Positions 15,301-57,402 of a stretch of 64,000 bases of DNA are shown piece after piece. Under the pieces are notes generated by a model. The model had not been told where the DNA came from and ran no database searches. It was given only the letters and a program-made list of their open reading frames with translations. The stretch's first letter is position 1. Every line of letters begins with the position of its first letter. A program made the translations under genes and the position numbers. The stretch covers positions 63,952,780 through 64,016,779 of the forward strand of contig OZ018321.1 of the NCBI GenBank assembly GCA_963969495.1, written 5' to 3'. Origin of the DNA: Ceratothoa steindachneri (taxonomy: Eukaryota; Arthropoda; Malacostraca; Isopoda; Cymothoidae).

Positions 15301-16111
15301 AGAGGGGGTCGGCTTCCACGCCGTATCCCCTCTGTTTGAAGTCAGCGGGGCTCTACCAGGCGCTGCGTCTGTCTTCATGGCCGAGCTGGTGGCAATACAC
15401 CACTCGGTACGGGAGATTACGCGACGTGCCCGGTTCGGAGACCGGATTGTGATCTATAGCGACTCACAAAGCGCCCTGAGTGCTCTCGGGGCATTGGAAT
15501 CTCCGCATCCCCTGGTTCGCGATATCCGTGACGCCACGGTTTTGGCGAGCCGGGCAGATGTCGAGATTATCTTCTGCTGGGTTCCTGGACATGTGGGAAT
15601 TGCGGGGAATGAGCGCGCCGATGAGGGTGCCAAAGAGTCCGCGAGGACTCTGCGACCGGACCAGCGTTTCGCTCTTCCTCACACCGACTACATGGCAGGA
15701 ATACGGGCAGCTCTTCGGACTGCTTGGCAAAGAAGATGGGAGACGGTCGAAGGGAACTTAAAGTTGCGTGCCATTGCGCCGCGACTGTTCCCATGGACCT
15801 ATCCCCCAATGCCGCGGCGGCTTCAGGTTGCTTTCTGTCGTCTCCGAATCGGACACACTCGTGTGACGCATCGCTATCTGGTGGAGCGCTCGCCTGCGCC
15901 CTATTGCAACGACTGCGTCGTCCCCCAGACTGTTCGGCACATTCTTGTCGAATGTCCCAGTCTGGGTGATCTTCGCGCACGACACCTGTCCCGGTACCGG
16001 GATGGGCGGGGTCGCTACCGCCTGTCCCTTGTACTCGGGACGAGTGCGTGCACTTTGACTGGTGGACTTGCTAACTTTTTGGGGGAGGCCGGCCTTCTCC
16101 CTTTTTTTTAA
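12285..16111 (+). pseudogene. I-A ORF2 (endonuclease-RT-RNase H), three frameshifts
   Basis: This is the counterpart of the intact I-D ORF2. The frame breaks at about 12487 (T6 where I-D has T7), about 13491 (one C fewer in a C-run) and about 14716 (G5 where I-D has G4). Between these the domains are complete: APE endonuclease with LLGDLNGRH and GSDHFPI, RT with FFDLEKAYDTA and YVDD (about 14380-14395), RNase H with VYTDGSKS, a YSDSQSA Asp and NERADE, and the C-terminal CNDC...H...C knuckle. All three breaks lie in or beside short homopolymers, so assembly error is possible. Confidence 0.88.
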
Positions 16112-22971: not shown

Positions 22972-23004
22972 GCGATTGCGTCCCGTAAAACAAAGAGGGT
23001 CACC

Positions 23005-25440
23005 ATGCCCAATGATGAAAAAAAAAAACATCTCTTCTTAATTCCCCCTATAACAACAACGGAGCCGCCCTCGTGCAGCTCCACAGAAAAGATGGAGGTC
23101 CCCCCCCCTGTGCTTGCGCAGGGGACCCTCCATACCTCTTTAACCGGAGAGGAGGCTTACTCCTCTCCTACGCCTACGGGTGTAGGGGACTCCCCCTCAC
23201 CCCCTTCTCTGGAGGTGCTTTCGGGCACCTCCCTATCTCCAGCGGCAGTCCCTCCTATGCTTTCTAAGTGGACTGCCAAGAAAGCCAGCAGGCAGCCCAT
23301 TGCCGACCGCCCCTCGTACAAGCGGCTCGGTAGGGCAAACCCCCTTAGGGGGGAGAGGGAAGCCAGGCCCCTTCGGTCGCTTCCCTCAAAAGACCTGCTG
23401 GCAAAAATATTAAACCTTGCCGGGGTCAAGGCCTGTGCCTCCCCACTAAAGACTTATGACGCTGCCAAGGGGACCTGCGATGTCCTGGGAGGGGATGGCC
23501 AACTGGAGGCCCCTCCTGTGATAGACATGGTCCTTGAGGAAAACCAGCCTCAGAAGGTAGGGCCTTCCATGGGGGGGAATCCGGGCTTGGCGCCAAGCAC
23601 CGAACCCGAATCCGCCCCTATGCAAGGTCCTCATCAAACGGCTGTGGATTCTCAGGCAGGACAAGGAGGGGAGGGATCTCCTCCGGATGAATCCCCTGCG
23701 CCCACCGGGACCTTCTCCATTTCAGAGAAGGACCTGGCTGAGGCCGGTCCATCTGGCCTGGGGGCTTCTACCGGCGGGGGTGAAAAGCGGGTTCATTCCC
23801 CGCCCTCCTCTCCTAAAAAGAAGAAAAAGACAAGAAAGACGAAAAAGACTCGGGGCTCCTCTCCATCCGCGGGGGCTGCGGGGACGGATGGGTCTGCTGC
23901 CACTTTGGTAGGCGACCAAGCCAAGATCGGCACATCCGGCCCCTCTACCCCCTCGTGTGCGGAGCCCCTGACTAAGACCAAGAGTGCACAGGGCGGAGCC
24001 TCGATGACATCGGGGCCCCTCATTCAGAGGTTACCTGGCGTTTTCGAGCCCGCTGGCTTCAAACGCTTCCTCGTTATTCGCTCCACTGATGGCACCATGT
24101 TGTCCAAGGGCAACATGATCCATCAGAGGAGAGGATTAGCTAGTGCAATTGGTAGAGAGCCGAAGGTAACCCGTTTCTCGGACGGGAGCCTTCTGGCGAA
24201 TGCGGCGAATCCCGCCGAGGCGGCCAAGATAAGTGCTCTTCGGACACTTCATGGCACCCCGGTGAGTGTGACGCCGCACTCTACCATGAACTTTGTAAAA
24301 GGAGTAGTTTATGCGAGGGAACTCGTTGACTACTCCATAGAAGACATCACCCTAGAGCTGGCCGACCATGGGGCGGTCAAGGTCGAACGTGTGATGAGAA
24401 AACAGGGAGGGGCCTCGAGACCCACCCCTACACTCTTCGTCACGTTCGACTGTGACAAGCTCCCTGAGTCGGTGCGTGCCGGTTGGTACCGCTACCGCGT
24501 AAAGGCATTCGTGCCACTGCCGCGGCGGTGCTATTACTGTCACCGTTTCGGCCACACGAATCGATCATGTAGACGTGCAAAATCGGGGTCACCCGAAGTC
24601 TGTGTAAATTGCTCCAAGGTCGCACACGATAAGTCCAAATCGTGTGTGGCCAAGTGTGTCAATTGCGGAGAGCCGCACCCTGCTTCTTCGAAGCAATGTG
24701 GTGCATATCTCCTTGAGAAAGAAATCCTGGCCATTCAGGCCCAGGATCGACTCTCATTCCGCGAGGCTAAGGACTTGGTCCTGGCGCGCCCGGCTCTGCC
24801 TGGGACGTCATATGCCTCAATAGTTAGAAAAGCACCCTCTGCTCCTGGCCCATCCAGGCCAACGAGCACGGTTGTTTCCGCGCCCATTCGGAGCCCTTCT
24901 GCGGGCTCTACTACACCCGAGCGCTCCCCTGGTAGAGCTGGCGGCAAAAAGGGTTCACACCCAGCCCCGGCTAATACCAGGGCTCCCCCCTCTTCCCCCA
25001 GCGTGACCGTTTCCCGTAAGGCGAAACGGCCACGCGCCTCCACAGAGTCGTTAGACTCACAGGAGGCAACACCCCTGAAGATGGTCGCTAGGCCATCTTC
25101 CGGGGTTCCTAAAGCTGTTCCCCGAAAGGAGGACAGCAACAAAGGAGCTTAGGCCCCTTCGCCCACGCCCCGAGGTGGAGCGAGTGGCTCGGAGACGGTG
25201 GTTCCTCGAAAAGAGGGCCCCCCGCCTCCCAAGCCGCAACGCCCGCCTAAGGTTTCGAGGCGGAGGGAGGAAAAGACTCGCATGGCGAGCCCAACCTCCC
25301 CCAATAAGTCCTCGAAGGCGACAGCGCCTTCAGCGCTTTGTCCGGCCAACAGCGCCCGGGGTTCTGCCCCCGGGAAGCGTACGGCCATTCCCGTGAGGGT
25401 CTTCAATTCGAGGAGGGCCCCCGCGTCTCCTCCGAGCTAG
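23005..25440 (+). CDS. I-D ORF1: gag-like RNA-binding protein, one premature stop
   Basis: Starts at ATG 23005 (GTCACCATG) and would run 811 codons to TAG at 25438-25440; codon 716 is TAG (25150-25152) where I-A and I-B have TCG. The first 330 residues are Pro/Ser/Gly-rich with Lys runs. Residues about 340-520 form an RRM-like region (LPGVFEPAGFKRFLVIRSTD...). Then come three zinc knuckles: CYYCHRFGHTNRSC (CX2CX4HX4C), CVNCSKVAHDKSKSC and CVNCGEPHPASSKQC (about residues 510-565). The tail is basic and Ser/Pro-rich. The protein would package element RNA. The premature stop removes only the last 96 residues, so the truncated 715-residue product may still work. Confidence 0.9.
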
Positions 25441-28400
25441 GCCTGGAGGGCATATTCCTTCAATGGAATTGCCGTGGACTCCGGGCCAACTGGGAGGAGC
25501 TGCGGAGGCTCGTCTCGTCCCGTTCCCCGTTAGCTATTTTTTTGCAGGAGACCATGCTAGGCGCGTGCCCGCTGCCTGCCTTCCCGGGGTATAAGGGTCT
25601 TGCGACCCCACCACCGCGGGATGGCCGGGCTGGGGGATGCGCGGTTTACACCCGGCATGATGTCTCCGTTCTTCCTTTCTCTTTAGATACCTCCTTTCAG
25701 GCAGTGGCTGTGCAGCTGCACCTGGATAGGAGGTATACTATCATTTCTGCGTACATTCCACCGTCAGCTGACTTCGACGCGGGGGAATCTCGCCGCGTCG
25801 TGGCACGGTTGCCGAGGCCCTATCTCTTGCTTGGAGATCTGAACGGCAGGCATCCTCTCTGGGGAGATTACTCCATAAATCCCAGGGGACAAGTCCTTGC
25901 CGATCTGATCGAAGAGCTTGAGATGGGTGTCCTAAACGTGGATGAGTTTACGCATCACTGTCCGAGAACCGCTTCATTTTCTTGCCTTGACCTATCTTTG
26001 TGCTCTTCAGATGCACAGCCTGATTTTGATTGGGGGGTGGTCGATGACCTCCATGGTAGTGATCACTTTCCCATTCAAATATCATTTTCAGGGCAACTGC
26101 CGCCTGAGAGACCACCTCGGTGGTGCTTGGCGCGGGCGCGGTGGCCTGCATTTCAGGAAATGACTGAATTCTCTATCTCAGTCGAGGAGTTTAGGTCGGT
26201 AGATGAGGCCGTTGAGTTCTTCTCCGGCAACCTCATCGCCGTAGGCCTGACTACTATTCCTAGGACGTCTGGCCGTTTTGCACGCCGACCACTCCCATGG
26301 TGGTCGGCCGAGTGTGAGACGGCCCTCAAACAGAAGCGTTATGCCTACATGCGCTATAAGCGCCGCCCGAACGATTTCACTGTCGCTGAATTTCGTCGGG
26401 CTAGGGCTAGGTTCCGGTATATTTCGAAGCACGCCCGCCGCTCTTCTTGGCGGGCATACGTGTCTTCACTTAACGGGAAGACCCCTTTAGCTGAGGTGTG
26501 GAAGCGAGTCAAAAGGATTCGGGGCAAGTTCTCGCAGGACCCCCCTCCCGTTCTCCAGGAGAATGGGACCGCAATCTCGGACCCCGCGTCCGTGGCGGAA
26601 TCCTTAGCGACCGCTTTTTCCGCATTCTCTAGCCGTGATGCTGCTCCGCCAGCATTCAATGCACGTCGTGATGTCGCGGAAGGCCGCCGGCTGGACTTTA
26701 CCTCCAGAGGCGGAGAACCCTTCAACGACAAGTTTACTGTTAGTGAGTTGCGTTCCGCTCTCGCTTCGTGCGCGGACACCGCCCATGGTCCGGACGATGT
26801 CCCGTACGCCATGCTTCGACACCTGGGTGAGCGAGGCATGGCCTTTCTGTTAGATTTGTTCAACAGGATCTGGGTGGAAGGTCTTCTCCCAGACTCCTGG
26901 CGAATCGCTACTGTGCTCGCCTTTCGCAAGCCGGGGAGAGATCACTCTACTCCGACCGGTTTCCGCCCAATCTCTCTAACCTCTTGCGTGTGCAAGTTGA
27001 TGGAGAAATTGGTAAATGTTAGATTAGCCTATTTCCTGGACAGCGGAGGCCATCTGTCTTCTGCACAGTGCGGCTTCCGTAAGTTCCACTCCACGTCGGA
27101 TGCTCTGCTCCGACTGGAAAGTGCCGTCTGCGAGGCTTTCCTTCGTAGACAGCACTACGCCACGGTGTTTTTTGATCTGGAGAAGGCCTATGATACCGCA
27201 TGGCGATACGGTATCATGGAGACTCTCCACACGATGGGGGCGAGGGGACGCCTCCCAATGTTTATATCTGAATTTTTGCGAGATCGTCGATTCCGCGTAC
27301 GGGTGGGGGGAGCTCTCTCCGGCCCAAAGGAGCAGGAAGAGGGTGTCCCGCAGGGAAGTGTCCTCAGTGTCACACTCTTTGCCCTGAGCATCAACGGCAT
27401 CACCTCGGTGCTGCCGGAAGATGTTCTCGCTACGCTCTACGTGGACGACCTTTCGATCTCTTTTGGCGCGGCCCAGATGCCAACTCTGGAGCGTCGACTC
27501 CAACAGGCATTGAACCGCGTCTCTCACTATGCCGAAGCGCACAGGTTTCGGTTTTGTTTGGCCAAGACTAAGGTGGTGCACTTCTGCCGCCATCCACGGC
27601 TTCACCCCGACCCAGATTTGTTTCTTAATGGGGTGCGCCTGGATGTGGTTGAGTCGCACCGTTTCCTTGGTCTTGTATTCGACCGACGCCTCACCTGGGA
27701 GGCTCATATTCGCAGCCTTAGGGTCTCTTGTACCCGCGCCATGGACATTCTCCGTTCCGTGACGTTCAGCGCTTGGGGCGCTGATAGGGCTACCGCCTTA
27801 CTTTTTTATCGATCCTTTGTTCGCTCGAAGCTCGACTACGGTTGCGAGTTTTATGCATCCGCAGCCGAGCGTTTATTGCGGAAGGTGGATTCGATCCACC
27901 ACACCGGCCTTCGCCTTGCGACCGGTGCCTTCCGCACTTCCCCCATTGAGAGCCTGTTGGTCGATGCTGGGGAGATGCCACTCGCTCTGCGCCGCGTGCA
28001 GTGCATCACTCGCCTGTACGCGCGAGCCCGGCGCCTCCCTCAGTCGCCAACAGCTCTCACTGCATCCGCAGCTGATCTCGATGGTGCCTATGCCGCCGAG
28101 AGACGCCAGTCATACCCTAAGCCCTTTGGGTTTAGGGCCAGGAAACTCCTTCGAGAGGTAGATATAGCTCTCGGGCCGGTGGCGCCCCTGGTTCTGCCCA
28201 GGACGCCACCCTGGAGGGTACCACATTTGGCTATTTGTCGCCACGCCTCTGCTCCCAAAGCTTGTACTGCGCCGGGAGTATTGCGTTCGACCTTTTTGGA
28301 GCACACATCGTGTCACGCTGGTACCGTGCCAGTGTATACGGATGGCTCCAAGTCCCAAGAGGGGGTCGGCTTCCACGCCGTATCCCCTCTGTTTGAAGTC

Positions 28401-29168
28401 AGCGGGGCTCTACCAGGCGCTGCGTCTGTCTTCACGGCCGAGCTGGTGGCAATACACCACTCGGTACGGGAGATTACGCGACGTGCCCGGTTCGGAGACC
28501 GGATTGTGATCTATAGCGACTCACAAAGCGCCCTGAGTGCTCTCGGGGCATTGGAATCTCCGCATCCCCTGGTTCGCGATATCCGTGACGCCACGGTTTT
28601 GGCGAGCCGGGCAGATGTCGAGATTATCTTCTGCTGGGTTCCTGGACATGTAGGAATTGCGGGGAATGAGCGCGCCGATGAGGGCGCCAAAGAGTCCGCG
28701 AGGACTCTGCGACCGGACCAGCGTTTCGCTCTTCCTCACACCGACTACATGGCAGGAATACGGGCAGCTCTTCGGACTGCTTGGCAAAGAAGATGGGAGA
28801 CGGTCGAAGGGAACTTAAAGTTGCGTGCCATTGCGCCGCGACTGTTCCCATGGACCTATCCCCCAATGCCGCGGCGGCTTCAGGTTGCTTTCTGTCGTCT
28901 CCGAATCGGACACACTCGTGTGACGCATCGCTATCTGATGGAGCGCTCGCCTGCGCCCTATTGCAACGACTGCGTTGTCCCCCAGACTGTTCGGCACATT
29001 CTTGTCGAATGTCCCAGTCTGGGTGATCTTCGCGCACGACACCTGTCCCGGTACCGGGATGGGCGGGGTCGCTACCGCCTGTCCCTTGTTCTCGGGATGA
29101 GTGCGTGTACTTTGACTGGTGGACTTATTGACTTTTTGGGGGAGGCCGGCCTTCTCCCTTTTATTTAA
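25308..29168 (+). CDS. I-D ORF2: APE endonuclease, reverse transcriptase, RNase H
   Basis: Open from 25308 to the stop at 29166-29168. Numbering here counts TTG 25338 as residue 1. APE endonuclease: Asn44 (LQWN), Glu71 (QET), Asp167/Asn169 (GDLN), Asp242/His243 (GSDHFPI). RT: FFDLEKAYDTA, EGVPQGSVLSV, YVDD at 701-704. RNase H: Asp1002 (YTDGSKS), Glu1035 (AEL), Asp1061 (YSDSQSA), Asp1114 (NERADE). A C-terminal CX2CX7HX4C knuckle follows (YCNDC...H...C). All catalytic residues are present. The first in-frame ATG is at 25554 (residue 73), after the endonuclease Asn and Glu, so the true start is not a simple AUG. The frame overlaps ORF1 by about 130 bases in the -1 register. Confidence 0.94.
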   Translation, partial: VLEGDSAFSALSGQQRPGFCPREAYGHSREGLQFEEGPRVSSELGLEGIFLQWNCRGLRANWEELRRLVSSRSPLAIFLQETMLGACPLPAFPGYKGLATPPPRDGRAGGCAVYTRHDVSVLPFSLDTSFQAVAVQLHLDRRYTIISAYIPPSADFDAGESRRVVARLPRPYLLLGDLNGRHPLWGDYSINPRGQVLADLIEELEMGVLNVDEFTHHCPRTASFSCLDLSLCSSDAQPDFDWGVVDDLHGSDHFPIQISFSGQLPPERPPRWCLARARWPAFQEMTEFSISVEEFRSVDEAVEFFSGNLIAVGLTTIPRTSGRFARRPLPWWSAECETALKQKRYAYMRYKRRPNDFTVAEFRRARARFRYISKHARRSSWRAYVSSLNGKTPLAEVWKRVKRIRGKFSQDPPPVLQENGTAISDPASVAESLATAFSAFSSRDAAPPAFNARRDVAEGRRLDFTSRGGEPFNDKFTVSELRSALASCADTAHGPDDVPYAMLRHLGERGMAFLLDLFNRIWVEGLLPDSWRIATVLAFRKPGRDHSTPTGFRPISLTSCVCKLMEKLVNVRLAYFLDSGGHLSSAQCGFRKFHSTSDALLRLESAVCEAFLRRQHYATVFFDLEKAYDTAWRYGIMETLHTMGARGRLPMFISEFLRDRRFRVRVGGALSGPKEQEEGVPQGSVLSVTLFALSINGITSVLPEDVLATLYVDDLSISFGAAQMPTLERRLQQALNRVSHYAEAHRFRFCLAKTKVVHFCRHPRLHPDPDLFLNGVRLDVVESHRFLGLVFDRRLTWEAHIRSLRVSCTRAMDILRSVTFSAWGADRATALLFYRSFVRSKLDYGCEFYASAAERLLRKVDSIHHTGLRLATGAFRTSPIESLLVDAGEMPLALRRVQCITRLYARARRLPQSPTALTASAADLDGAYAAERRQSYPKPFGFRARKLLREVDIALGPVAPLVLPRTPPWRVPHLAICRHASAPKACTAPGVLRSTFLEHTSCHAGTVPVYTDGSKSQEGVGFHAVSPLFEVSGALPGAASVFTAELVAIHHSVREITRRARFGDRIVIYSDSQSALSALGALESPHPLVRDIRDATVLASRADVEIIFCWVPGHVGIAGNERADEGAKESARTLRPDQRFALPHTDYMAGIRAALRTAWQRRWETVEGNLKLRAIAPRLFPWTYPPMPRRLQVAFCRLRIGHTRVTHRYLMERSPAPYCNDCVVPQTVRHILVECPSLGDLRARHLSRYRDGRGRYRLSLVLGMSACTLTGGLIDFLGEAGLLPFI
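25355..25374 (+). promoter_or_regulatory. GC hairpin in the ORF1/ORF2 overlap of I-D
   Basis: CCCGGGG, loop, CCCCGGG form a 7-bp GC stem inside the region where ORF1 and ORF2 overlap. It is also present in I-A near 12302 but broken in I-B. It could influence ORF2 initiation or frameshifting, but no canonical slippery heptamer precedes it. Confidence 0.4.
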
Positions 29169-34250: not shown

Positions 34251-34317
34251 GCTGGTTACCACACCTAAGAGGAAGAATAAGAAGAAGAAGAAAAAAAAAA
34301 TAGAGATACAAGAGGAA

Positions 34318-35014
34318 AGCGGCAAGTCGCCTCCGAAAGGAAAGAATAAAGTCCGCAGGCAAATGTGCAAGAGTCACCCTTATTGGTGATTCTCAAGCAC
34401 GGGGTCTGAAGCCCCTGCTAGCGGCCCGCCTTTGCACAAGCGTTAAGGTGAGCTGCATCCCAGGTTGTGGGAATATGCAGGTAAGAGCTGAGGCCGAGAA
34501 GTCTCAGATTTCAGAGACTTCAGTCGTTGCCCTTATGGTAAGTGGCAACGACCTCTACCTCAGAGGAGGTAGGGTAGGCCCTACAGGTGAAATTATGAGG
34601 ACAGTTATGGGCGCTGTCGACGACTGTGGACTGAAAACCCGCAGACGCGTCGTGGTGGGGATGCTCCCGAGGTGGGGTCCAAGCCGGACTGCCCACTTGA
34701 GGAACATGTCGCTAAACAGGCGCCTTGCAGACCTCTGTACGGCTGAGGGTGTCTTTTTTGTGGACCCGTACGCCGTGTTCTATGGTAGAAAAGACCTCTA
34801 CCAAAGGGACGGGGTGCACCTCTCCTTTAAGGGCAAGGCGTTCCTAGCCAACCTCATCCAGGATGTCGTGGAGCGCACCCAAAGGAGTGTCCGGCCCATT
34901 GGGAAGGCGGACGTACGCCAGTACGCCCGAGTCACTCCCCAAACAATCTTCTCGGAGGTTGTTAAAAATGGTGCCACCACGACAAACAAGAAGCCGGGAA
35001 ACGGAAGAGTATAG
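34318..35014 (+). pseudogene. CR1-1 ORF1, SGNH hydrolase part (5'-truncated)
   Basis: This partial ORF1 contains CARVTLIGDSQARGL (block I GDS Ser), VVALMVSGNDLYLRGG (GxND block) and RDGVHLSFKGKAF (DxxH block), ending GNGRV and TAG at 35012-35014. The hydrolase triad appears complete. The N-terminal Cys-rich and coiled-coil parts are missing, and the Lys-rich entry has a stop near 34305. CR1-family ORF1 proteins with esterase-like domains are known in several animals; the substrate is unclear. Confidence 0.85.
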
Positions 35015-35040
35015 GGGGTCCTACATTAGGGGACTCCCTG
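34996..35040 (+). promoter_or_regulatory. Putative -1 frameshift site, CR1-1
   Basis: GGGAAAC (34996-35002) sits in phase G_GGA_AAC in the ORF1 frame. A 10-nt spacer is followed by a stem AGGGGGTCC (35013-35021)/GGACTCCCT (35031-35039), with one G-T wobble and a possible extra T-G pair. After a -1 slip the ribosome reads directly into ORF2. Confidence 0.7.
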
Positions 35041-37791
35041 AAGGTTCTTCTGTTCAATGCGAGGTCAATCAGGAACAAGTTTCCTGAGCTCCGTGGCCTC
35101 GTAGCGACGGAAGAACCCGAAATGGTAGCCATAACAGAATCGTGGATAAAAACGTCAAACCGAGACTTTGAAGGCGAATTCACGGTTCCTGGCTACCAAC
35201 TGTTCCACAAAGATAGGCCAGACAGAGAGGGTGGCGGTGTAATGTTGTATGTCAAGGATACAATCAAATCTACGAACTCCAACGTTATATCCGACCACGA
35301 GCTCTTAGGCGTTGACCTAGAAATCGGTCCTGCCAAATACAGGACCCTGCTGCTTTACAGACCCCCTTCCCAACCTGTTGAGAAGGACAGGGAACTGTAC
35401 CAGCTGCTGGGTGAGCTGGTTCAAGGCAGAGTGTGCATCGTTGTGGGCGATTTCAACAGCCAAGTTGACTGGGAAACCAGAGCAGCCTGTGGCGAGAGCG
35501 CGCTACTCCTGGAGTTCGCCAACAACGAGTTCCTCACTCAATGGGTCAGAGAACCGACGAGAGGAGACAATATCCTCGACTTGGTCTTCACCTCTGAGGA
35601 TGATATCGTTGAGGATATCTCTGTAGGCGAAGAGCTCGGTGGCAGTGATCACCAGCTAGTTAGATTTAGCGTCAAGATCCCGAAGGTAAGGTCTGTTGTC
35701 AGTCAATCAAAGAAACTTGACTTGAGAAGAGCAGACTTTGCAAGCCTTCGAGCTGGACTGACTGACGTGAGGCTAGAAGTGTGCGATGCCGTTGAAGACT
35801 CGTGGAATAGTTTCAAAACCACATTCATGAGTCTTCAATCGCGTTTCATCCCTCTGAAATGCCCCCGTCTGTCTTCTGTTCAACCTAAGTGGTTTAATCG
35901 AGAAATCGGCCAACTGCTTAGGGAGAAGAGAAATGTGTACCGGCAATCGAAGATCTCGGGTGACTTTGACGAATACCGGAGGCTAGCCAGGAGAGTGAAG
36001 TCCAGCATAAGGGCGGCTAAGCGGTCTGAGGAACTCCGAGTGGCGAGACTCTGTAAAGAGAATCCCAAGGAGTTTTTTGGATATGTGAACAGCCGTAAAC
36101 CAATCCGTCGAACGATTGGCCCTTTGAGGAATGAGGAGGGGACATTAAAGCATTCAGATGCAGAAAATGCTAACCTCCTCAACGACTACTTCTCTTCAGT
36201 GTTTACTGAAGAGTGTGGTCCCATTCCCCAGCCCACGGATTCCTACTCGGGGGAAAAGCTGGAGGCAATGGACTTCACCGAAGGAGAAATAAAGAAAAAG
36301 ATCGCTGTCCTAAAGACGAATAAGTTCCCTGGACCGGACGGGTTTCTACCTAAAGTGTTGAAGGAAGTGTGCGATGAAGTATCACGACATCTGTGCGCTA
36401 TCTTTAACATGTCAATCCGGACCGGATGCGTTCCTAGAGACTGGCGTGAGGCGGAGGTGACTCCTATCTTCAAGAAAGGAGACCGTAACCAACCGTCGAA
36501 CTACCGACCTATCAGTCTGACTTCGATAGTCGGTAAACTCATGGAAAGCATCATGGTGGACAAAGTGACGTCGTATTTAGAGTCAAACCTGCTACTGAGG
36601 AGTTCCCAGCACGGCTTCCGAAGGCAACGGTCATGCCTGACGAACCTTGTGGAATTCTTCCACTTCGTTTTCAGTGAGCACGATCGGGACAAGGCGGTGG
36701 ATGTGGTCTACCTAGACTTTCAGAAAGCCTTTGATAAGGTACCACACCGCCGCCTTCTCCGGAAAGTGCGAGCGCTTGGCATAGACGGAAAGGTAGCCGG
36801 CTGGATCGAGAACTGGCTAAGTGGCAGACGGCAACGGGTGGTGGTAAATGGACAGTCTTCTGAGTGGGTGCCCGTTACTAGCGGGGTGCCTCAAGGTTCT
36901 GTCCTGGGACCACTACTATTCATCATCTACGTCAACGACATGGACGGTGACATGGTTGCCAAGATTTCCAAATTTGCCGACGATACCAAGCTTGGTATGA
37001 ACGTTGCAAAGGATGGAAATACTGCCCGCCTGCAGGAAGATCTTGGGAAGATTGGGGAGTGGTCGGACACGTGGCAAATGCCTTTTAACGTGGGCAAATG
37101 CAAAGTGATGCATATCGGCCACAGAAACCCCCAATCTCAGTATATCCTTAAGGGCACTGCTATTGAATCCACCGACACTGAGAAGGACTTGGGTGTAACA
37201 ATCACTAGTGACCTCAAGTTCTCGAAACAGTGCATTGAGGCGGAGAAAAAGGCCCAAAGGATGCTAGGCTATATTAAGCGCCAGTTTGGTTATCGGAACC
37301 AGGAGATTGTACTGTGCCTGTACAACTCACTTGTCCGACCGCACCTGGAGTATGCCGTACAATTTTGGAGTCCTTCATTGCGAAAGGACATCGCGAGATT
37401 GGAACGCATACAAGCCAGGGCAACCAAGCTGATTCCCTCTATCCGACATAAAAGTTATAAGGATAGACTAAGGGAGTTAGATCTGTTCTCATTGGAAACC
37501 CGTAGGCTGCGTGGTCAGCTCATCGAAGTCTTCAAAATACTTCGAGGGTTCGACAATGTTGACTACCGGGATATTTTCACACTGAGTGAGAACAGAACGC
37601 GCAATCACGGCTTCAAACTTGAACTGAAGCGTTACAACCGCAATATGTGTGGAAACTTTTTCACCTACAGTATCTGCGGTAAGTGGAACGCACTTCCAGT
37701 GGAAGTTGTCAACAGTGAATCTGTTGACCAGTTCAAGTCAAGACTAGACAAAGTCTTGAAAAGTGGCCGTTTATGGACGCAAAACAATTGA
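35003..37791 (+). CDS. CR1-1 ORF2: APE endonuclease and reverse transcriptase
   Basis: Fully open. In the -1 frame after GGGAAAC it reads RKSIGGPTLGDSLKVLLFNARSIRN, placing the endonuclease Asn (FNARS) upstream of the first ATG (35122), from which 889 residues follow. Endonuclease: [101 protein letters not shown] (catalytic ADD). No RNase H, as expected for CR1/L2. The C-terminus ends TQNN; the TGA stop (37789-37791) lies inside the first 3' hairpin. This is the most intact CR1 ORF2 of the window. Confidence 0.93.
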
Positions 37792-37907: not shown

Positions 37908-38119
37908 TCGGGGACCGTCAGTGCTGCTTGGTTGGGAGCCACGGCACGCCGAGGTTTGACGACTCGGTCGGACGAACAGCAGCACAAGGAGCGTGCCTTC
38001 TGAAAGATCCGAAACCTCTCTGATCGATAGGTGGGAGCGACTCACGCGGGGCGAACTCACCACCCCCTTTCTTTTTTATTGAGTGGTCACAAAGTATTCA
38101 GAGTTATACAGTGTTCAGC

Positions 38120-39355
38120 ATGACTGGAAAGAAAGGACCTGGTGCGTTAAAGTATACCTGCTCCACATGCCAAAAGGACAAGTGGTGCGTAGATTTTCCG
38201 GAGGGGTGTTTCTCAAAATGCCACCCTGGAAGTATCTGCACGGACTGCGTCCTTAGGGCAGAACTTCAGGAGCTTAAGGAACTTTTTAAATCTTCTGAGG
38301 AAAAAACACGACGGCTGGAAGAAAAGGTGAAAATCCTCGAGTCTGAGCATGTGACTCAAATCCGTCATCTCGAAGCCATCATTTCAGAGATTAAAGCCAC
38401 CAATGGACAGCAACGGCAACAAGAAACTCCCAACGACGCGGATGGCTCCTCTGTTGGGCCCTCATGCACCGCGTCGATAGAGATAGGCCAACCATCCGAC
38501 GTCCCAGAGCCAGCAGCTGCTGGGGTTACTCAGGGCGTCAAAAAGAAGAAAAGGAAGAGTAAGAAAGGAAAAACAGAAGAGAAAGTAGAAACGGAAGATA
38601 AAACGAAGAAGAAAAAGAAGAAAAAACCCCAAAAAGTGGGGAAGAAAGAGGAATCGAAAGAGCCCATACTGAAAGGGAAGCCTCTGTCCTCTGAACCCAA
38701 ATGCGCAAGGGTCATCGTGATCGGTGACTCCCAAGCGCGGGATCTACAACCCTTGCTAGCGGCCCGCCTTCGCACCAGTGTGAAGGTAAGCTGCCTTCCA
38801 GGAAAGGGGAACGGAGAAATAAGGGTGGAGGCTGAGAAATCTCACATCTCTGAGAACTCAGTAGTTGCCCTCATGGCAAGTGGCAACGATCTCTACCTAC
38901 GAGGAGGAAATGTAGGCGCCAGCGGGAAGATCCTGACCACGGTTATGGGAGGAGTTGACGACTGTGGGCTAAAAACCCGCAGACGTGTCGTGGTCGGGAT
39001 ACTCCCAAGACGAGGTCCATCCCGCAATGCTCACGCGAGGAACGTCTCCATAAACCAACGCCTGGGAGATCTATGTACGGCGGAAGGAGTCTTTTTTGTA
39101 GACCCCTACCGCACCTTTTACGGGAGAAATGACCTGTACAAAAGTGACGGAGTGCATCTTTCCTTTAAAGGGAAAGCTGCACTCGCAAACATGATCCAGG
39201 ATGTTGTGGAGCGGACCCAAAGAAGTGTCAGACCCCGAGTAAAGGAGGACGTACGCCAGTACACCCGTGTTACTCCAGGAACGACCTTTTCTGAAGTCAC
39301 AAAGAGTGGAGTGATCCCGCCACAGAGAAAGAAAGCGGGAAACGGAAGAGCGTAG
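38120..39355 (+). CDS. CR1-2 ORF1: Cys-rich, coiled-coil, SGNH hydrolase protein
   Basis: ATG at 38120, 411 residues, intact. Residues about 11-45 hold a Cys/His cluster (YTCSTC...WCVDFPEGCFSKCHP...CTDC), possibly a PHD- or zinc-ribbon-like module. About 45-95 is a charged coiled coil (ELKELFKSSEEKTRRLEEK), and about 130-195 is strongly Lys-rich. The SGNH hydrolase has Ser204 in IGDSQARDL, SGNDLY, and Asp343/His346 in DGVHLSF. The protein probably binds RNA and oligomerises; the hydrolase may act on lipid or acetyl esters, as proposed for CR1-type ORF1 proteins. It ends GNGRA-TAG in a hairpin. Confidence 0.92.
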   Translation: MTGKKGPGALKYTCSTCQKDKWCVDFPEGCFSKCHPGSICTDCVLRAELQELKELFKSSEEKTRRLEEKVKILESEHVTQIRHLEAIISEIKATNGQQRQQETPNDADGSSVGPSCTASIEIGQPSDVPEPAAAGVTQGVKKKKRKSKKGKTEEKVETEDKTKKKKKKKPQKVGKKEESKEPILKGKPLSSEPKCARVIVIGDSQARDLQPLLAARLRTSVKVSCLPGKGNGEIRVEAEKSHISENSVVALMASGNDLYLRGGNVGASGKILTTVMGGVDDCGLKTRRRVVVGILPRRGPSRNAHARNVSINQRLGDLCTAEGVFFVDPYRTFYGRNDLYKSDGVHLSFKGKAALANMIQDVVERTQRSVRPRVKEDVRQYTRVTPGTTFSEVTKSGVIPPQRKKAGNGRA

Positions 39356-39381
39356 GGAGTCCTACAGTCGGGGACTCCCTA
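39337..39381 (+). promoter_or_regulatory. Putative -1 frameshift site, CR1-2
   Basis: G_GGA_AAC at 39337-39343 in the ORF1 phase; spacer of 9-10 nt; stem AGGGAGTCC (39354-39362)/GGACTCCCT (39372-39380), extended by T39353-A39381. The ORF1 TAG (39353-39355) is at the base of the stem. Confidence 0.72.
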
Positions 39382-41941
39382 AAAGTTCTTCTGTTTAATG
39401 CGAGGTCTATCAGAAACAAGTTTCTAGAACTTCGTGGCCTCGTAGCAACGGAAGAACCGGAGATGGTGGCCATAACGGAGTCGTGGATAAAAACCTCAAG
39501 CCGAGATTTTGAAGGTGAATTCACGATTCTCGGTTACCAGCTCTTCCAGAAAGATAGGCCAGACAGAGAGGGTGGCGGTGTGATGTTGTATGTCAAGGAT
39601 ACTCTCAACTCGACGGATTGCAACATCGTATCCGACCATGAACTACTAGGTGTTGACCTAGAGATAGGTCCTGCCAAATACAGGACCCTGGTGCTTTATA
39701 GACCTCCTGCCCAACTCGTTGAAAAGGACAGAGATCTGTACCAGCTACTAGGAGAACTTGTTAAAGACAGAGTGTGTATCGTCATGGATGATTTCAACAC
39801 ACAAGTTGACTGGGAAACCAGAGAACCCTGTGGCGAGAACGCACTACTCCTGGAGTTCACGAACAACGAGTTCCTCACTCAATGGGTGAGAGAGCCAACG
39901 AGAGGAGACAATATCCTCGACTCGGTTTTCACCCTTGAGGATGACATCGTTGAGGACCTCTCTGTTGGCGAAGAGCTCGGTGGCAGTGACCACCGATTAA
40001 TTAGATTTGTAGTCAAAGTCCCCAAGGCAGAGCCTGCAACTAGTAAATCAAGGAAACTGGATTTGAGAAGAGCAGACTTTGCAGGTCTACGCGCGGGACT
40101 GACTGACGCGAGGCTAGAGGAGTGCGATGCTGTTGAAGACTCTTGGAACAGTTTCAAAACCACATTCATGAGTCTTCAATCGCGTTTTATCCCTCTGAAA
40201 TGCCCCCGTCGGTCTTCTGTTCAACCAAAGTGGTTTAATCGAGAAATCAGCCAACTGCTTAGGGAGAAGAGAAATGTGTACCGGCAATCGAAGATCTCGG
40301 GTGACTGACGAATACCGGAGGCTAGCCAGGAGAGTGAAGTCCAGCATAAGGGCGGCTAAGCGGTCTGAGGAACTCCGAGTGGTGAGACTCTGTAAAGAGA
40401 ATCCCAAGGAGTTTTTTGGATATGTGAACAGCCGTAAACCAATCCGTCGTACGATTGGCCCTTTCAGGAATTCTGGAGGGGACATTAAAGCATTCAGATG
40501 CAGAAAATGCTAACCTCCTCAACGACTACTTCTCTTCAGTGTTTACTGATGAGTGTGGTCCCATTCCCCAGCCGACGGATTCCTACTCGGGGGAAAAGCT
40601 GGAGGCAATGGACTTCACCGAAGGAGAAATAAAGAAAAAGATCGCTGACGTAAAGACGAATAACTCCCCTGGACCGGACGGGTTTCTACCTAAAGTGTTG
40701 AAGGAAGTGTGCGATGAAGTATCACGACATCTGTGCGCTATCTTTAACATGTCAATCCGGACCGGATGCGTTCCTAGAGACTGGCGTGAGGCGGAGGTGA
40801 CTCCTATCTTCAAGAAAGGAGACCGTAACCAACCGTCGAACTACCGACCTATCAGTCTGACTTCGATAGTCGGTAAACTCATGGAAAGCATCATGGTGGA
40901 CAAAGTGACGTCGTATTTAGAGTCAAACCTGCTACTGAGGAGTTCCCAGCACGGCTTCCGAAGGCAACGGTCATGCCTGACGAACCTTGTAGAATTCTTC
41001 CACTTCGTTTTCAGTGAGCACGATCGGGACCAGGCGGTGGATGTGGTCTACCTAGACTTTCAGAAAGCCTTTGATAAGGTACCACACCGCCGCCTTCTCC
41101 GGAAAGTGCGAGCGCTTGGCATAGACGGAAAGGTAGCCGGCTGGATCGAGAACTGGCTAAGTGGCAGACGGCAACGGGTGGTGGTAAATGGACAGTCTTC
41201 TGAGTGGGTGCCCGTTACTAGCGGGGTGCCTCAAGGTTCTGTCCTAGGACCACTACTATTCATCATCTACGTCAACGACATGGACGGTGACATGGTTGCG
41301 AAGATTTCCAAATTTGCCGACGATACCAAGCTTGGTATGAACGTTGCAAAGGATGGAAATACTGCCCGCCTGCAGGAAGATCTTGGGAAGATTGGGGAGT
41401 GGTCGGACACGTGGCTAATGCCTTTTAACGTGGGGAAATGCAAAGTGATGCATATCGGCCACAGAAACCCCCAATCTCAGTATATCCTTAAGGGCACTGC
41501 TATGGAATCCACCGACACTGAGAAGGACTTGGGTGTAACAATCACTAGTGACCTCAAGTTCTCGAAACAGTGTATTGAGGCGGAGAAAAAGGCCCAAAGG
41601 ATGCTAGGCTATATTAAGCGCAAGTTTGGTTATCGGAACCAGGAGATTGTACTGTGCCTGTACAACTCACTTGTCCGACCGCACCTGGAGTATGTCGTAC
41701 AATTTTGGAGTCCTTCATTGCGAAAGGACATCGCGAGATTGGAACGCGTACAAGCCAGGGCAACCAAGCTGATTCCCTCTATCCGACATAAAAGTTATGA
41801 GGATAGACTAAGGGAATTAGATCTGTTCTCGCTGGAAACCCGTAGACAGCGTGGTCAGCTCATCGAAGGTTTTCAAAATAATTCGAGGGTTCGACAATGT
41901 TGACTACCGGGATATTTTCACACTGAGTGAGAACAGAACGC
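39344..41941 (+). pseudogene. CR1-2 ORF2, frameshifted
   Basis: The -1 frame from the slip site gives KSVGSPTVGDSLKVLLFNARS, then the endonuclease (MDDFNTQVDW, where GDFN has changed to DDFN, and GGSDHRLIRF). A 2-base deletion at about 40306, an altered segment at about 40468 and a 1-base insertion at about 41868 break the frame. The RT block 40455-41903 is open with [26 protein letters not shown] and KFADDTKLG. The Gly to Asp change in the endonuclease motif suggests loss of nicking activity even before the frameshifts. Confidence 0.88.
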
Positions 41942-43589: not shown

Positions 43590-45234
43590 GGTGAAAGAGG
43601 ATGGTGAGCTAGAGCTCAGTGACGAAGCGAATGCGACCATCCTCAACAAGTACTTCTCGTCAGTTTTCACTGAGGAGAAGGACACCACCCCTGAGCCTCG
43701 CGACAAGTACGAAGGCTCAGAGCAATTGGAGAGATTTCACTTCTAGGAGACGACAGTGCGTTCAAAGATCGACGCTTTGAACCGCTACAAGTCGCCAGGG
43801 CCCGATGGCTTCTTACCACGGGTGCTGAAGGAAGTGCGAGATGAGGTCTCCCCACATCTCTGCTCGATCTTCAGGAAATCGCTCGAGACTGGATGCGTGC
43901 CAAAGGACTGGCGAGACGCGGAAGTCACCCCCATATTCAAAAAGGGTAACGCGAGCGAGCCATCTAACTACCGGCCGATCAGCCTGACGTCGGTAGTAGG
44001 AAAATTGATGGAAAGTATCCTGGTTGACGAAATAACGCAGCACGTCGAGTCCAACCACCTATTGAGGAATTCCCAACACGGGTTCCGGCGGCACAGGTCA
44101 TGCCTAACGAACCTTTTGGAATTCTTCCACTTCGTGTTCAGCGAGCACGACCGGGAGAAGGCGGTGGATGTCATCTACCTCGACTTGAAGAAGGCCTTCG
44201 ACAAGGTGCCCCACCGCCGATTGCTGAAAAAGGTTCGAGCGCTAGGCATCGCCGGAGCTGTAGGTGACTGGATCGAAAACTGTCTGCATAGTCGAAGGCA
44301 GCGAGTAGTGGTGAACGGGCAAAAGTCCGGTTGGCTACCGGTAACAAGCGGCGTTCCCCAAGGCTCCGTGCTGGGCCCCCTACTCTTCATCATCTATGTA
44401 AACGACATAGATGATGGCATAACTGCGAGGATTTCCAAATTTGCCGACGATACCAAACTAGGTATGAACGTGGCAGACGCGGAAAACGTCGAGAGACTCC
44501 AAGCCGACTTGAGGAAACTCGGGGAGTGGTCAGACAAATGGCAAATGCCGTTCAATGTCGAAAAGTGCAAGGTGATGCACATCGGCCACAGAAATCCCCA
44601 AGCCGTCTACAGCCTCAAAAACTCGGCGCTAGAGAGCACAGACATGGAAAAAGACTTGGGAGTCGTGCTCACCAGCGACCTCAAGTTTTCCAAGCAGTGC
44701 ATCGAGGCGGAGAAGAAAGCCCAGAGAATCTTGGGGTATATCAAGCGACAGTTTGGGTATCGGAACAGGGAAATCGTTCTCACTCTCTTTAATTCCCTGG
44801 TCCGACCTCACCTGGAGTACGCAGTCCAGTTTTCGAGTCCATTTCTTCGGAAGGACATCGCCCGACTGGAGCGAGTACAAGCCAGGGCGACCAAACTGAT
44901 CCCCTCGATCAGGCACAAAAGTTACGAAGCCCGCCTAGAAGAACTAAACCTCTTCTCACTGGAAACCCGAAGACGGCGCGGTCAATTAATCGAGGTCTTC
45001 AAAATCCTCCGAGGTATTGACCACGTAGGCAACGGGGACATTTTCCAACTAAGCGAGGGCGTAACGAGAAACCACGGCTACAAAATTGAGCTGCCGCGTT
45101 ATCACCGGGACAGATGCGGGAACTTCTTCAGTTACAGTATCTGCAACGAGTGGAACGCGCTTCCGCCAGAAGTCGTGAACAGCGACTCTGTGGAGCAGTT
45201 CAAAAGGCGCCTGGATAAAGTCCTGGATCGCTGA
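43590..45234 (+). pseudogene. CR1-4 ORF2 RT (truncated, one stop)
   Basis: The frame is open from the 5' junction except for TAG at 43744-43746. From 43747 it is open to TGA at 45232-45234. Landmarks: [82 protein letters not shown]. The endonuclease and ORF1 are absent through 5' truncation. Confidence 0.88.
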
Positions 45235-47213: not shown

Positions 47214-47842
47214 GGTGATTCTCAAGCGCGGGGTCTGAAGCCCCTGCTAGCGGCCCGCCTTCGCACAAGCGTTAAGGTGAGCTGCATCCCAGGTTGTGGG
47301 AATAAGCAGGTAAGAGCTGAGGCCGAGAAGTCTCAGGTTTCAGAGACTTCAGTCGTTGCCCTTATGGTAAGTGGCAACGACCTCTACCTCAGATGAGGTA
47401 GGGTAGGCCCTACAGGTAAAATTATGAGGACAGTTATGGGCGCTGTCGACGACTGTGGACTGAAAACCCGCAGACGCGTCGTGGTGGGGATGCTCCCGAG
47501 GTGGGGTCTAAGCCGGACTGCCCACTTGAGGAACATGTCGCTAAACAGGTGCCATGCAGACCTCTGTACAGCTGAGGGTGTCTTTTTTGTAGACCCGTAC
47601 TCCGTGTTCTATGGTAGAAAAGACCTCTACCAAAGGGACGGGGTGCACCTCTCCTTTAAGGGCAAGGCGTTCCTAGCCAACCTCATCCAGGATGTCGTGG
47701 AGCGCACCCAAACGAGTGTCCGGCCCATTGGGAAGGCGGACGTACGCCAGTACGCCCGAGTCACTCCCCAAACAACCTTCTCGGAGGTTGTCAAAAATGG
47801 TGCACCACTACAAACAAAAAGCCGGGAAACGGAAGAGTATAG
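47207..47842 (+). pseudogene. CR1-7 ORF1 fragment (SGNH part)
   Basis: Starts inside IGDSQARGLKPLL. A GGA to TGA stop lies after SGNDLYLR at about 47394. The DGVHLSFKGKAF block is intact. A 1-base loss near 47804 shifts the frame before GNGRV-TAG. Confidence 0.8.
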
Positions 47843-47868
47843 GGGGTCCTACATTAGGGGATTCCCTG
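47824..47868 (+). promoter_or_regulatory. Putative -1 frameshift site, CR1-7
   Basis: GGGAAAC at 47824-47830; stem AGGGGGTCC (47841-47849)/GGATTCCCT (47859-47867). The two base differences from CR1-2 both keep pairing as G-T wobbles. Confidence 0.62.
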
Positions 47869-50716: not shown

Positions 50717-52225
<1,509 letters not shown>

Positions 52226-52960
52226 CCTTCTCCTTTTTAACTTTTATCCTATCTCTCCCACTTATACAAAAAGAAAAAAACAAAAAAGCCTACTCCTATC
52301 ATGTCACTCTTTCCCTTTTTTCCCTCTATCTACATATAAGGACCTGGCAGCTACCTCACGCGTCAGAAGAGAGGCTTTGGAACCTCTATAAACAACGCCA
52401 ATCGACGTTCACTGGTTGCGAGAGACTAGGACTAGAGGTGTCCTAGGCGTTGGGGCACGATGAATGGGATGAGGGTAGTGCCCTGTTAACCCCTTCCCTG
52501 GCGCGTAATTATTGACCGTTCCCAGTGCCCGTTGACGGGTGCCTCTGGTAGCATCGGTCCGAGGTGACGGCCCTTTGTTCCCAGGTTGGTTGCCAGGCCA
52601 ATAAAAAGCCTTGGGTCGAGTCTCTTGGTGGGGCGGGATATCCATTGAACGCTGCTCCGAGATCCTGGCCGTTGTGAAGGGAACTAGTAGGAGTTTAGTA
52701 AGGGGCGTGTTTCGTTGCTGTTCACCTGGTGACAAATCGATGGCCCCTTCGGGGACAGTCTGTGCTGCTTGGTTGGGAGCCACGGCACGCCGAGGCTTGA
52801 CGACTCGGTCGGACGAACAGCAGCACATGGAGCGTGCCTTCTGAAAGATCCGAAACGTCTCCGATCGATAGGCGGGAGCGACTCACGCGGGGAGAACTCA
52901 CCACCCCCCTTTTTTATCATTGATTGGTCGCAAAGTATTTAAAGAGAGAAAGTGTTCAGA

Positions 52961-54205
52961 ATGACCGGCAAGAAAGGACCAGGAGCTCTAAAATACACGT
53001 GCGCAATATGCCACATAGATAAGTGGTGCGTGGACTTTCCGGAGGGGTGTTTTTCGAAATGCCACCCGGCCAGTTCCTGCACCGACTGTATTTTAAACGG
53101 CCAAATCAAGGAGCTAAAGGAAACATGCAGGGTTTCCGAGGAAAGATCCAGGAAGTTGGAGGAAAAAATAAGCAGCCTCGAATTAGAACACGCCGGACTG
53201 ATTCGCAGGCTTGAGGTGAGAATAGCAGAGCTAACGTCAAGCCCTGTACTAAACACTGCATCTGCAGTATTACCCCCAGAGCTAGGTCCGCATGCTATGG
53301 ATAAACCCTCAAAGAAAAGGAAAAGGAAGGGAAAGAAACAGGAAGAAGAGAAAGTTGAAACAGAAGATAAAGTAGAAGCTGAAAAAGAGAAAGTTGAAGC
53401 AGAGGAAGAAAAGAGAAAAACAGAAGAGTATGTAACAAAGGAAGATAAGGGGGAAGAGACGAATAAGAAAAAGAAGAACAAGAATAATAAGATGGAGAAG
53501 AAAGAGCGAACCAAGAGTTCGCTTCGGCAAGGAAAGCCTCAAACCTCTGCACGGAAATGTCCGAGGGTTACCCTCGTGGGCGACTCCCAAGCACAAGGTT
53601 TGCAGCCCCTGCTAGCGGCCCGCCTTCGCACTAGTGTGGAGGTATGCTGCCAGCCAGGACGGGGAAACCACCACATCAGGGTAGAGGCTGAGAAATCTCA
53701 GATCTCCGAGAATTCAGTCGTTGCCCTGATGGTGAGTGGGAATGACCTCTACCTCCGAGGAGGCAAAGTCGGCCCCAGCGATAAAATTCTCAACACGGTC
53801 ATGGGAGCCGTGGACGACTGTGGATTGAGAACTCGCAAACGGGTCGTTGTAGGGATGCTCCCAAGAAGAGGTCCTAGCCGGACAGCTCACTCTAGGAACG
53901 TGACCCTGAACCAGCGCCTGTCCGACCTCTGTACGGCGGAAGGGGTCTTCTTTCTGGACCCTTACCGCACCTTTTACGGTCGAAACGACCTTTACCAAAG
54001 GGACGGAGTGCACCTTTCATTCAAGGGAAAGGCTGTACTCTGTAAATTAATCCAGGATGTCGTAGAGCGGACGCAGAGGAGCGTCCGACCCAGAGTGAAG
54101 GCGGACATAAGACAGTATGCCCGTGTCACTCCTGGAACGACGTTCTTAGATGTGGCAAAGAGGGGTACTGCCACACAAAAGAATCCGGGAAACGGAAGAG
54201 CGTAG
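52961..54205 (+). CDS. CR1-9 ORF1: Cys-rich, coiled-coil, SGNH hydrolase protein
   Basis: ATG at 52961, 414 residues, intact. Same plan as CR1-2 ORF1: Cys cluster YTCAIC...WCVDFPEGCFSKCHP...CTDC, coiled coil (KELKETCRVSEERSRKLEEK), a long Glu/Lys-rich linker with KVE/AE repeats, then LVGDSQAQGLQPLL, SGNDLYLRGG and RDGVHLSFKGKAV, ending GNGRA-TAG. The linker differs greatly in sequence from CR1-2, while both ends and the hydrolase are conserved. Confidence 0.92.
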   Translation: MTGKKGPGALKYTCAICHIDKWCVDFPEGCFSKCHPASSCTDCILNGQIKELKETCRVSEERSRKLEEKISSLELEHAGLIRRLEVRIAELTSSPVLNTASAVLPPELGPHAMDKPSKKRKRKGKKQEEEKVETEDKVEAEKEKVEAEEEKRKTEEYVTKEDKGEETNKKKKNKNNKMEKKERTKSSLRQGKPQTSARKCPRVTLVGDSQAQGLQPLLAARLRTSVEVCCQPGRGNHHIRVEAEKSQISENSVVALMVSGNDLYLRGGKVGPSDKILNTVMGAVDDCGLRTRKRVVVGMLPRRGPSRTAHSRNVTLNQRLSDLCTAEGVFFLDPYRTFYGRNDLYQRDGVHLSFKGKAVLCKLIQDVVERTQRSVRPRVKADIRQYARVTPGTTFLDVAKRGTATQKNPGNGRA

Positions 54206-54231
54206 GGAGTCCTACACTGGGGGACTCCCTG
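54187..54231 (+). promoter_or_regulatory. Putative -1 frameshift site, CR1-9
   Basis: G_GGA_AAC at 54187-54193 in the ORF1 phase (AAT CCG GGA AAC); stem AGGGAGTCC (54204-54212)/GGACTCCCT (54222-54230). ORF2 of this copy has no ATG at the usual MVAITE position: it reads IVAITE. Confidence 0.72.
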
Positions 54232-57357: not shown

Positions 57358-57402
57358 GGGAAACGGAAGAGTATAGGGGGTCCTACATTAGGGGACTCCC
57401 TG
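57358..57402 (+). promoter_or_regulatory. Putative -1 frameshift site, CR1-10
   Basis: GGGAAAC at 57358-57364; stem AGGGGGTCC (57375-57383)/GGACTCCCT (57393-57401), like CR1-1. Confidence 0.62.

Follow-up and report, generated by a model that had tools for sequence, protein, structure and literature searches.

A putative programmed −1 ribosomal frameshift signal between ORF1 and ORF2 of CR1-type LINEs

Results

CR1 elements of the window

The window, by which we mean the whole 64,000-nt stretch of DNA that was analysed, carries five copies of a CR1-type LINE that include the ORF1/ORF2 junction. The features of these copies are as follows.

34304–35014, + strand: ORF1 of CR1-1, 5′-truncated, SGNH/GDSL esterase, ending in ..PGNGRV-stop (open frame; Pfam)
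34966–37791, + strand: ORF2 of CR1-1, APE endonuclease and reverse transcriptase (RT), −1 frame
34996–35002, + strand: slippery heptamer G_GGA_AAC of CR1-1
35012–35040, + strand: hairpin of CR1-1, 11 bp (35012–35022 with 35030–35040), with the ORF1 UAG (35012–35014) at its base
38024–39355, + strand: ORF1 of CR1-2, ending in ..AGNGRA-stop
39295–40308, + strand: start of ORF2 of CR1-2, −1 frame, interrupted later
39337–39343, + strand: slippery heptamer of CR1-2
39353–39381, + strand: hairpin of CR1-2
47824–47830, + strand: slippery heptamer of a copy with a decayed ORF1
47840–47868, + strand: hairpin of the same copy, with two internal G·U pairs
52943–54205, + strand: ORF1 of CR1-9, ending in ..PGNGRA-stop
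54046–55083, + strand: start of ORF2 of CR1-9, −1 frame, interrupted later
54187–54193, + strand: slippery heptamer of CR1-9
54203–54231, + strand: hairpin of CR1-9
57358–57364, + strand: slippery heptamer of a copy without the 5′ part of ORF1
57374–57402, + strand: hairpin of the same copy

According to Pfam, ORF2 of CR1-1 contains the Exo_endo_phos and RVT_1 domains, and no RNase H was matched in its 941 codons. ORF1 matched Lipase_GDSL_2/SGNH, below the curated cut-off, and the PDB entry 4c1b, an 'ORF1-encoded protein', with an E-value of 3e-4. An APE endonuclease and RT without RNase H, together with an SGNH esterase ORF1, is the architecture of a CR1-clade LINE; the clade name was taken from the first-pass annotation and this domain architecture rather than from an RT phylogeny with named CR1 references.

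Several other elements were observed in the window. An I/R1-type LINE at 22972–29168 encodes an endonuclease, an RT and an RNase H, with an open ORF1 of 726 aa and an ORF2 of 1286 aa. In contrast to those of CR1, its ORFs lie ∼155 bases apart without overlap, and no canonical heptamer was found in 24801–25400. A remnant endonuclease–RT–RNase H LINE, split over overlapping frames, occupies 12344–16111. The segments 43822–45203 and 50924–51941 belong to a different CR1 family that is ∼74% identical to the first copy and is truncated before the junction. Between 43480 and 57180, several CR1 copies have at their end a CCTTGTTACTC-like repeat and then a long (CT)n tract. A 5′-truncated copy at ∼47208 starts right behind such a tract and another, at 57152, close behind one; the tails of existing CR1 copies may serve as insertion sites for new copies.

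A heptamer in the ORF1 phase and an ORF2 without its own AUG

The first-pass annotation placed the heptamer GGGAAAC at 34996, 39337, 47824, 54187 and 57358, and all five positions were confirmed. Frame reading also bore out the phase it had assigned, G_GGA_AAC, in the copies with an open ORF1 (CR1-1, CR1-2 and CR1-9). In these copies, with heptamers at 34996, 39337 and 54187, ORF1 is open over 236, 443 and 420 codons, respectively, and its 3′ end reads (C/G)CG GGA AAC GGA AGA GNN TAG. The heptamer is of the canonical form X_XXY_YYZ in zero-frame phase in 5/5 window copies, and the TAG that terminates ORF1 starts 9 bases past it.

The downstream ORF lies in the −1 frame, overlaps the zero frame at the heptamer and has no start of its own in the window copies. 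More specifically, the first codon of the endonuclease motif FNARS, TTC or TTT, starts 57 bases after the heptamer start in each of the five copies. The annotated absence of an AUG before this motif also holds: none occurs between the heptamer and FNARS in any of the five. ORF2 of CR1-1 is stop-free over its 941 codons, and its first AUG falls past FNARS, within the endonuclease.

The number of heptamers in the window is itself unremarkable. GGGAAAC occurs 15 times against 13.2 expected, and 35 of 100 shuffles reached as many. The case therefore rests on place, phase and conservation. Five of the 15 occurrences sit 475 bases further on, inside ORF2, one per copy, in a phase (within TGG GAA ACC) that is incapable of a canonical slip. 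In-phase canonical heptamers number six in 1099 ORF1 codons, three of them being the junction sites, and zero in 941 ORF2 codons. A second in-phase G_GGA_AAC at 53662, deep in the ORF1 of the copy at 52943–54205, is probably a chance occurrence.

Conservation of the heptamer among main-clade copies

The 3.93-Gb source genome (529 contigs) was then used as the search space. Its host is most likely a malacostracan crustacean: an arthropod haemocyanin query yielded three strong hits, and the one compared with the PDB scored 754–758 bits against the chains 6l8s (shrimp) and 1hc1 (spiny lobster) but at most 305 bits against the remaining chains listed. Mollusc haemocyanin matched neither this genome nor the control genomes, so its absence here carries no weight. 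One exact junction form, GGGAAACNNNNGAGTATAG, was found 1762 times, and the same pattern reversed was found 7 times. For a sampling blind to the heptamer, we used the endonuclease pattern FNARSIRNKF, which occurs at 9830 places; among the ∼100 matches listed, 30 were cut out as loci. GGGAAAC was present at the site in 22 of these (one being of the family F1, see below), the site was one base off in six, and the region was lost in two. Among 47 distinct main-clade copies, six of which had been fetched through the heptamer itself, GGGAAAC was present in 33, changed at one base in 10 and absent from four.

Many of these copies are pseudogenes, and the 14 altered or missing sites among the 47 are what would be expected of a relic, that is, a decayed or neutral heptamer that was inherited and has no present role. 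In the copies that appear intact, GGGAAAC does not vary freely: it was at the exact place in 8/8 stop-free main-clade copies versus 23/39 others (Fisher p = 0.04), where a copy counts as 'intact' if the final 450 nt of ORF1 and the initial 1350 nt of ORF2 are free of stops, and all eight come from the FNARSIRNKF listing. Together with conservation across families whose synonymous sites are saturated and the different canonical heptamers of two families, both described below, this makes a relic or chance origin the least probable of the explanations that we considered.

Distant CR1 families

More distant families were drawn from the FNARSIRNKF search, from a codon-variant search (1104 places, ∼100 listed) and from a NAQS-type search (62 places, all listed), of which 20 were fetched plus five more, shorter. 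They were grouped by sight into the main clade, F1–F8, F10, F13, F15–F17, D and E. The number of families is at least 16; they come from the places listed and are related by descent, and so do not constitute independent trials. We excluded L116 and L117, which are another LINE type with a zinc-knuckle ORF1; copies judged decayed or cut before the ORF1 end (L076, L078, L079, L118–L121, L124, L141, L142, L144 and L145); and L143, a single GGGAAAC-TAG copy with a later indel. In L124, an in-phase AAAAAAC lies 60 bases upstream and ORF1 is unreadable. Where readable, ORF1 contains the esterase motif DG(V/T/I/L)H(L/F) followed by a family-specific tail.

A canonical −1 heptamer lies at the ORF1 end in every one of the 16 families in which that end is readable: GGGAAAC in 14 (main, F1, F3, F4, F6, F7, F8, F10, F13, D, E, F15, F16 and F17), AAAAAAC in one and AAAAAAT in one. 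Per distinct copy, GGGAAAC was found in 3/4 of F1, 5/7 of F3, 2/2 of F4, 2/4 of F6, 3/3 of F7, 2/3 of F8, 2/2 of D and 2/2 of E, and in 1/1 of each of F10, F13 and F17, which are represented by a single copy. In F15 and F16 together, it was present in 6/11 copies with the stop directly after it, and in three of the six it was in phase with the endonuclease. F2 has A_AAA_AAC in 6/8 copies, five in phase, and F5 has A_AAA_AAT in 7/8 copies, two in phase. The distance from the heptamer to the ORF1 stop is three codons in the main clade, 10 or 13 in most other families and 11 in F2.

Some individual copies have further peculiarities. In the NAQS-type copies L105, L110, L111, L113, L115 and L143, TAG follows GGGAAAC immediately (GGGAAACTAG), next to the A-site codon. 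The F5 copies L069, L093 and L094 have a long asparagine-rich linker between the heptamer and the endonuclease. In L068, the junction AAAAAAT is at −181, and a separate, unrelated in-phase AAAAAAT is at −45.

In 12 of the 16 families (main, D, E, F1, F2, F3, F4, F6, F7, F8, F10 and F13), at least one copy has the heptamer in phase and a −1 frame that is open into the endonuclease and AUG-free up to it. We also checked for a genuine AUG before the endonuclease in all 94 distinct NARS-type copies. An in-frame AUG between the heptamer and the endonuclease was found in seven (L038, L041, L062, L064, L086, L088 and L094), each otherwise damaged in the fetched stretch. F16 is open in two copies, L113 and L115, in which a 56-codon linker between the heptamer and the endonuclease contains two in-frame AUGs, 33 and 63 nt past the heptamer start. 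The one in-phase copy of F15 and the two of F5 contain both stops and AUGs in the linker, and the sole copy of F17 has a stop in the −1 frame; for F5, F15 and F17, every known copy is damaged.

These linkers bear on termination–reinitiation, according to which ribosomes finish ORF1 and restart nearby on ORF2, the hairpin serving the restart and the heptamer being incidental. Such a route is documented or proposed in other LINEs, and passages on SART1 also describe a structure downstream (PMC5972666, PMC2881922). Moreover, L1 ORF2 expression is described in a section of one review as being thought AUG-independent (PMC5009743), so the absence of an AUG is not fatal to reinitiation. Restart is possible for F16, F15 and F5 because their linkers have in-frame AUGs, and F16 could express ORF2 by frameshifting, restart or both. 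By contrast, the open copies of the main clade and eleven other families are AUG-free in the −1 frame from the heptamer to the endonuclease, the exception being L086 of F3. Reinitiation also leaves unexplained the in-phase canonical heptamer at the ORF1 end in 16/16 readable families, the third codon bases that are kept within it (see below) and the other slippery heptamers of F2 and F5. Overall, we consider reinitiation improbable as the general explanation, albeit the strongest of the alternatives to frameshifting.

RNA structure downstream of the heptamer

The annotated hairpin was present in 5/5 window copies but with different dimensions: the stem comprises 11 bp rather than 9, and it starts 9 nt after the heptamer instead of ten. 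The ORF1 UAG constitutes the first three bases of the 5′ arm. The stem pairs UAGGGRGUCCU with GGGAYUCCCUR, 11 bp counting G·U pairs, around a 7-nt loop, and a lower stem below the window hairpin is also possible.

To survey structure, we used minimum free energy together with a simple hairpin/pseudoknot search, in which a single copy of each family was compared with 40 shuffles. The five window 50-nt stretches yielded fold z-scores of −2.9 to −5.3. For the hairpins of the main subfamilies, the z-scores were −1.3 to −4.1 over 65 nt and −2.3 to −4.1 over 100 nt. In the hairpin/pseudoknot search, 0/40 shuffles were as good in three window copies.

The hairpin did not prove to be a general feature and is nowhere clear outside the main clade. 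F3 has a candidate hairpin at the equivalent place with other letters (AGGGGGC/GCCCCCU); 1/40 shuffles was as good in the stem search, and by minimum free energy it was no better than shuffles. Between the main and F3 stems, two pairs are altered on both sides, a count reached by 467 of 500 shuffles. In the same pair count, 89.9% of cells pair, a value that none of the 500 shuffles attained and that compares with 66% at most in slid registers. In the stem search, 1/40 shuffles was as good for F1, 2/40 for F8 and 3/40 for F2, and minimum free energy does not support these structures. No convincing structure was detected in one copy each of F4, F6, F7, F8, F10, F13, D and E by either method, or of F5, F15, F16 and F17 by the hairpin/pseudoknot search. 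As ∼12 of the 16 families have no structure better than shuffles in the copy tested, a low frameshift efficiency would be predicted for them.

Conservation beyond the encoded protein

Amino-acid identity to the main clade ranges from 31 to 50% among the families, measured over the first 300 endonuclease-side codons. In the tree, the GGGAAAC families are scattered, and sequences from other sources fall between them, although support is low at several deep nodes. Where the same amino acid is encoded, third bases agree in only 30–41% of cases between the main clade and F3, D, F6, F7 and F16; for G, A, P, T and V codons, the agreement is 19–27%. Judged by these comparisons, third codon bases are saturated between families.

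Within the heptamer, the third bases of NNG GGA AAC are nevertheless common to the in-phase GGGAAAC copies, NNG encoding P, A, S, L, Q or R; in L066, this codon is a mutated TAG. Based on ORF1 codon use, the expectation of matching all three third bases is 0.27 × 0.40 × 0.67 = 0.07 per independent lineage. Conservation at the nucleotide level therefore exceeds that of the protein. F2 and F5 encode other amino acids with another word, which still has the canonical slippery form.

ORF1 homologs on metagenomic contigs also have a characteristic terminus: in 21/21 with a C-terminus, the protein ends in xGN plus exactly three residues, where x is S, Q, P, A or T. Two homologs, P0122 and P0141, break off earlier and were not counted. 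The homologs are protein sequences alone, and some are closely related to one another. The tail before xGN is variable, with only a loose VTP..FS.VV motif. A terminal xGN plus three residues is what G_GGA_AAC and a stop nine bases on would give. The M in the MxxLNARS of the protein records cannot be read as an AUG, because the starts there are choices of the gene finder. In IMG/VR, no relative was confirmed by tblastn; the GTDB contigs contain one distant RT locus, which was left out of the analysis.

The uniform ending of these 21 homologs is also what a protein-level constraint would yield, in which ORF1 needs a C-terminal Gly-Asn, such as a motif for binding or sorting, and GGGAAAC is no more than its coding sequence. 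Several observations argue against this explanation. The preceding codon has G as its third base whichever of six amino acids it encodes, and GGA and AAC persist while synonymous sites are otherwise near random between families. F2 (AKN, 11 codons before the stop) and F5 (GKNS-stop) keep a slippery heptamer without GN. Finally, the position of GN is not constant: it forms the last two residues in F15 and F16 and lies 10 or 13 residues from the end in most others. We consider a protein-level constraint very unlikely, more so than reinitiation.

Discussion

The ORF1/ORF2 junction of these CR1-type LINEs probably carries a programmed −1 ribosomal frameshift signal, and we put the probability of this reading at about 0.86. 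The first-pass annotation had proposed that an ORF1–ORF2 fusion is made by programmed frameshifting, and the place of the heptamer, its phase and its conservation across families support that proposal at the level of sequence. The −1 frame of ORF2, the lack of an AUG in most families and the occurrence of two alternative heptamers point in the same direction. From these features, we infer that ribosomes slip at the junction, the frequency at which they do so and that the fusion is the active enzyme.

In the proposed mechanism, most ribosomes would complete ORF1 and, in the main clade, terminate three codons past the heptamer. A minority would slip back, with the P- and A-site tRNAs moving from G_GGA_AAC to GGG_AAA, and continue into ORF2, the product being an ORF1–endonuclease–RT fusion. 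The enzyme would thereby be produced in cis and at a low ratio to ORF1, similar to Gag and Gag-Pol in many retroviruses. The hairpin 9 nt downstream is a probable stimulator of the slip in the main clade. Elsewhere, slippage would depend on the heptamer alone or on structures that escape detection.

More broadly, −1 frameshifting might be the ancestral and general route to ORF2 in esterase-type CR1 LINEs, those of crustaceans and of the other organisms with an ORF1 ending in xGN plus three residues. A Gag-Pol-like fusion would then be made in a set ratio instead of two separate proteins, the heptamers would be exchangeable for other slippery ones, and the hairpins would be later additions in some lineages. 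We hold this extension tentatively, giving it slightly less than an even chance.

The means by which LINEs synthesize a second protein, and the ratio of that protein to the first, are open questions for which reviews, in the sections that treat them, give unconventional reinitiation, StopGo and unknown initiation. If CR1 uses a retrovirus-style frameshift, the ORF1/ORF2 ratio becomes directly measurable. A fusion would also suggest a simple reason for cis preference, as the enzyme would already be joined to the ORF1 protein when it is synthesized on its own RNA. For annotation, the practical rule is to seek a slippery heptamer before assigning a start to CR1 ORF2.

Passages of the literature on related elements provide a context for this proposal. 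ZfL2-1 and vertebrate CR1 subgroup 7 have an esterase-type ORF1 followed by an APE–RT ORF2, as here, and the portions of the papers that deal with them describe two ORFs and no frameshift into ORF2 (PMC3905857, PMC4120745); words starting with 'frameshift' are absent from the main text of both. Nothing on the CR1 ORF1/ORF2 junction appears in passages of PMC1925062, PMC11203168, PMC2734521, PMC7175516 and PMC6740152. Among open-licence papers, the titles and beginnings of abstracts disclosed no report of frameshifting between ORF1 and ORF2 of CR1 or any other LINE.

Comparison with known systems

The reinitiation of SART1 and L1 is likewise a coupled expression of the second ORF in LINEs, and for SART1 the relevant passages include a downstream RNA structure (PMC5972666). 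Its restart is proposed to occur at an overlapping UAAUG together with that structure (PMC5972666, PMC2881922, in the passages concerned). The SART1 restart codon overlaps the ORF1 stop, whereas the window CR1 copies have no AUG overlapping or adjoining the ORF1 stop. StopGo/2A recoding requires one continuous frame and an NPGP-type motif. Unlike in that system, the CR1 ORFs are in different frames and the junction translations contain no NPGP motif. StopGo/2A is used by L1Tc and sea-urchin LINEs, according to the section of PMC5972666 that covers them. For mammalian LINEs, a passage of the recoding review rates unknown initiation as likelier than bypassing (PMC5009743).

Frameshifting has a precedent in a non-LTR element. 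In HeT-A, a telomeric element of Drosophila, gag is frameshifted, as mentioned in the same review (PMC5009743). In that element, the frameshift serves a Gag-like protein, and the passage describes HeT-A as being without its own RT (PMC5009743); ORF2 of CR1 encodes an RT.

The closest likeness is to the −1 frameshift of retroviral and LTR-retrotransposon gag-pro-pol, which the CR1 junction resembles in heptamer class, in phase and in having a downstream enzyme ORF in the −1 frame. For mammalian ribosomes, part of a review lists G_GGA_AAC among the shiftiest −1 heptamers (PMC5009743). The 9-nt spacing of the main-clade hairpin, within the 5–9 nt expected of a stimulatory structure, also matches that of the retroviral and LTR-retrotransposon signal. 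Unlike the retroviral type of X_XXY_YYZ plus structure, most CR1 families are without an evident stimulatory structure. Furthermore, CR1 differs from retroviruses and LTR elements in being a LINE without LTRs, whose ORF1 is of the esterase type and whose ORF2 encodes an APE endonuclease and an RT. If the frameshift reading is correct, LINEs and LTR elements would have arrived at the same signal.
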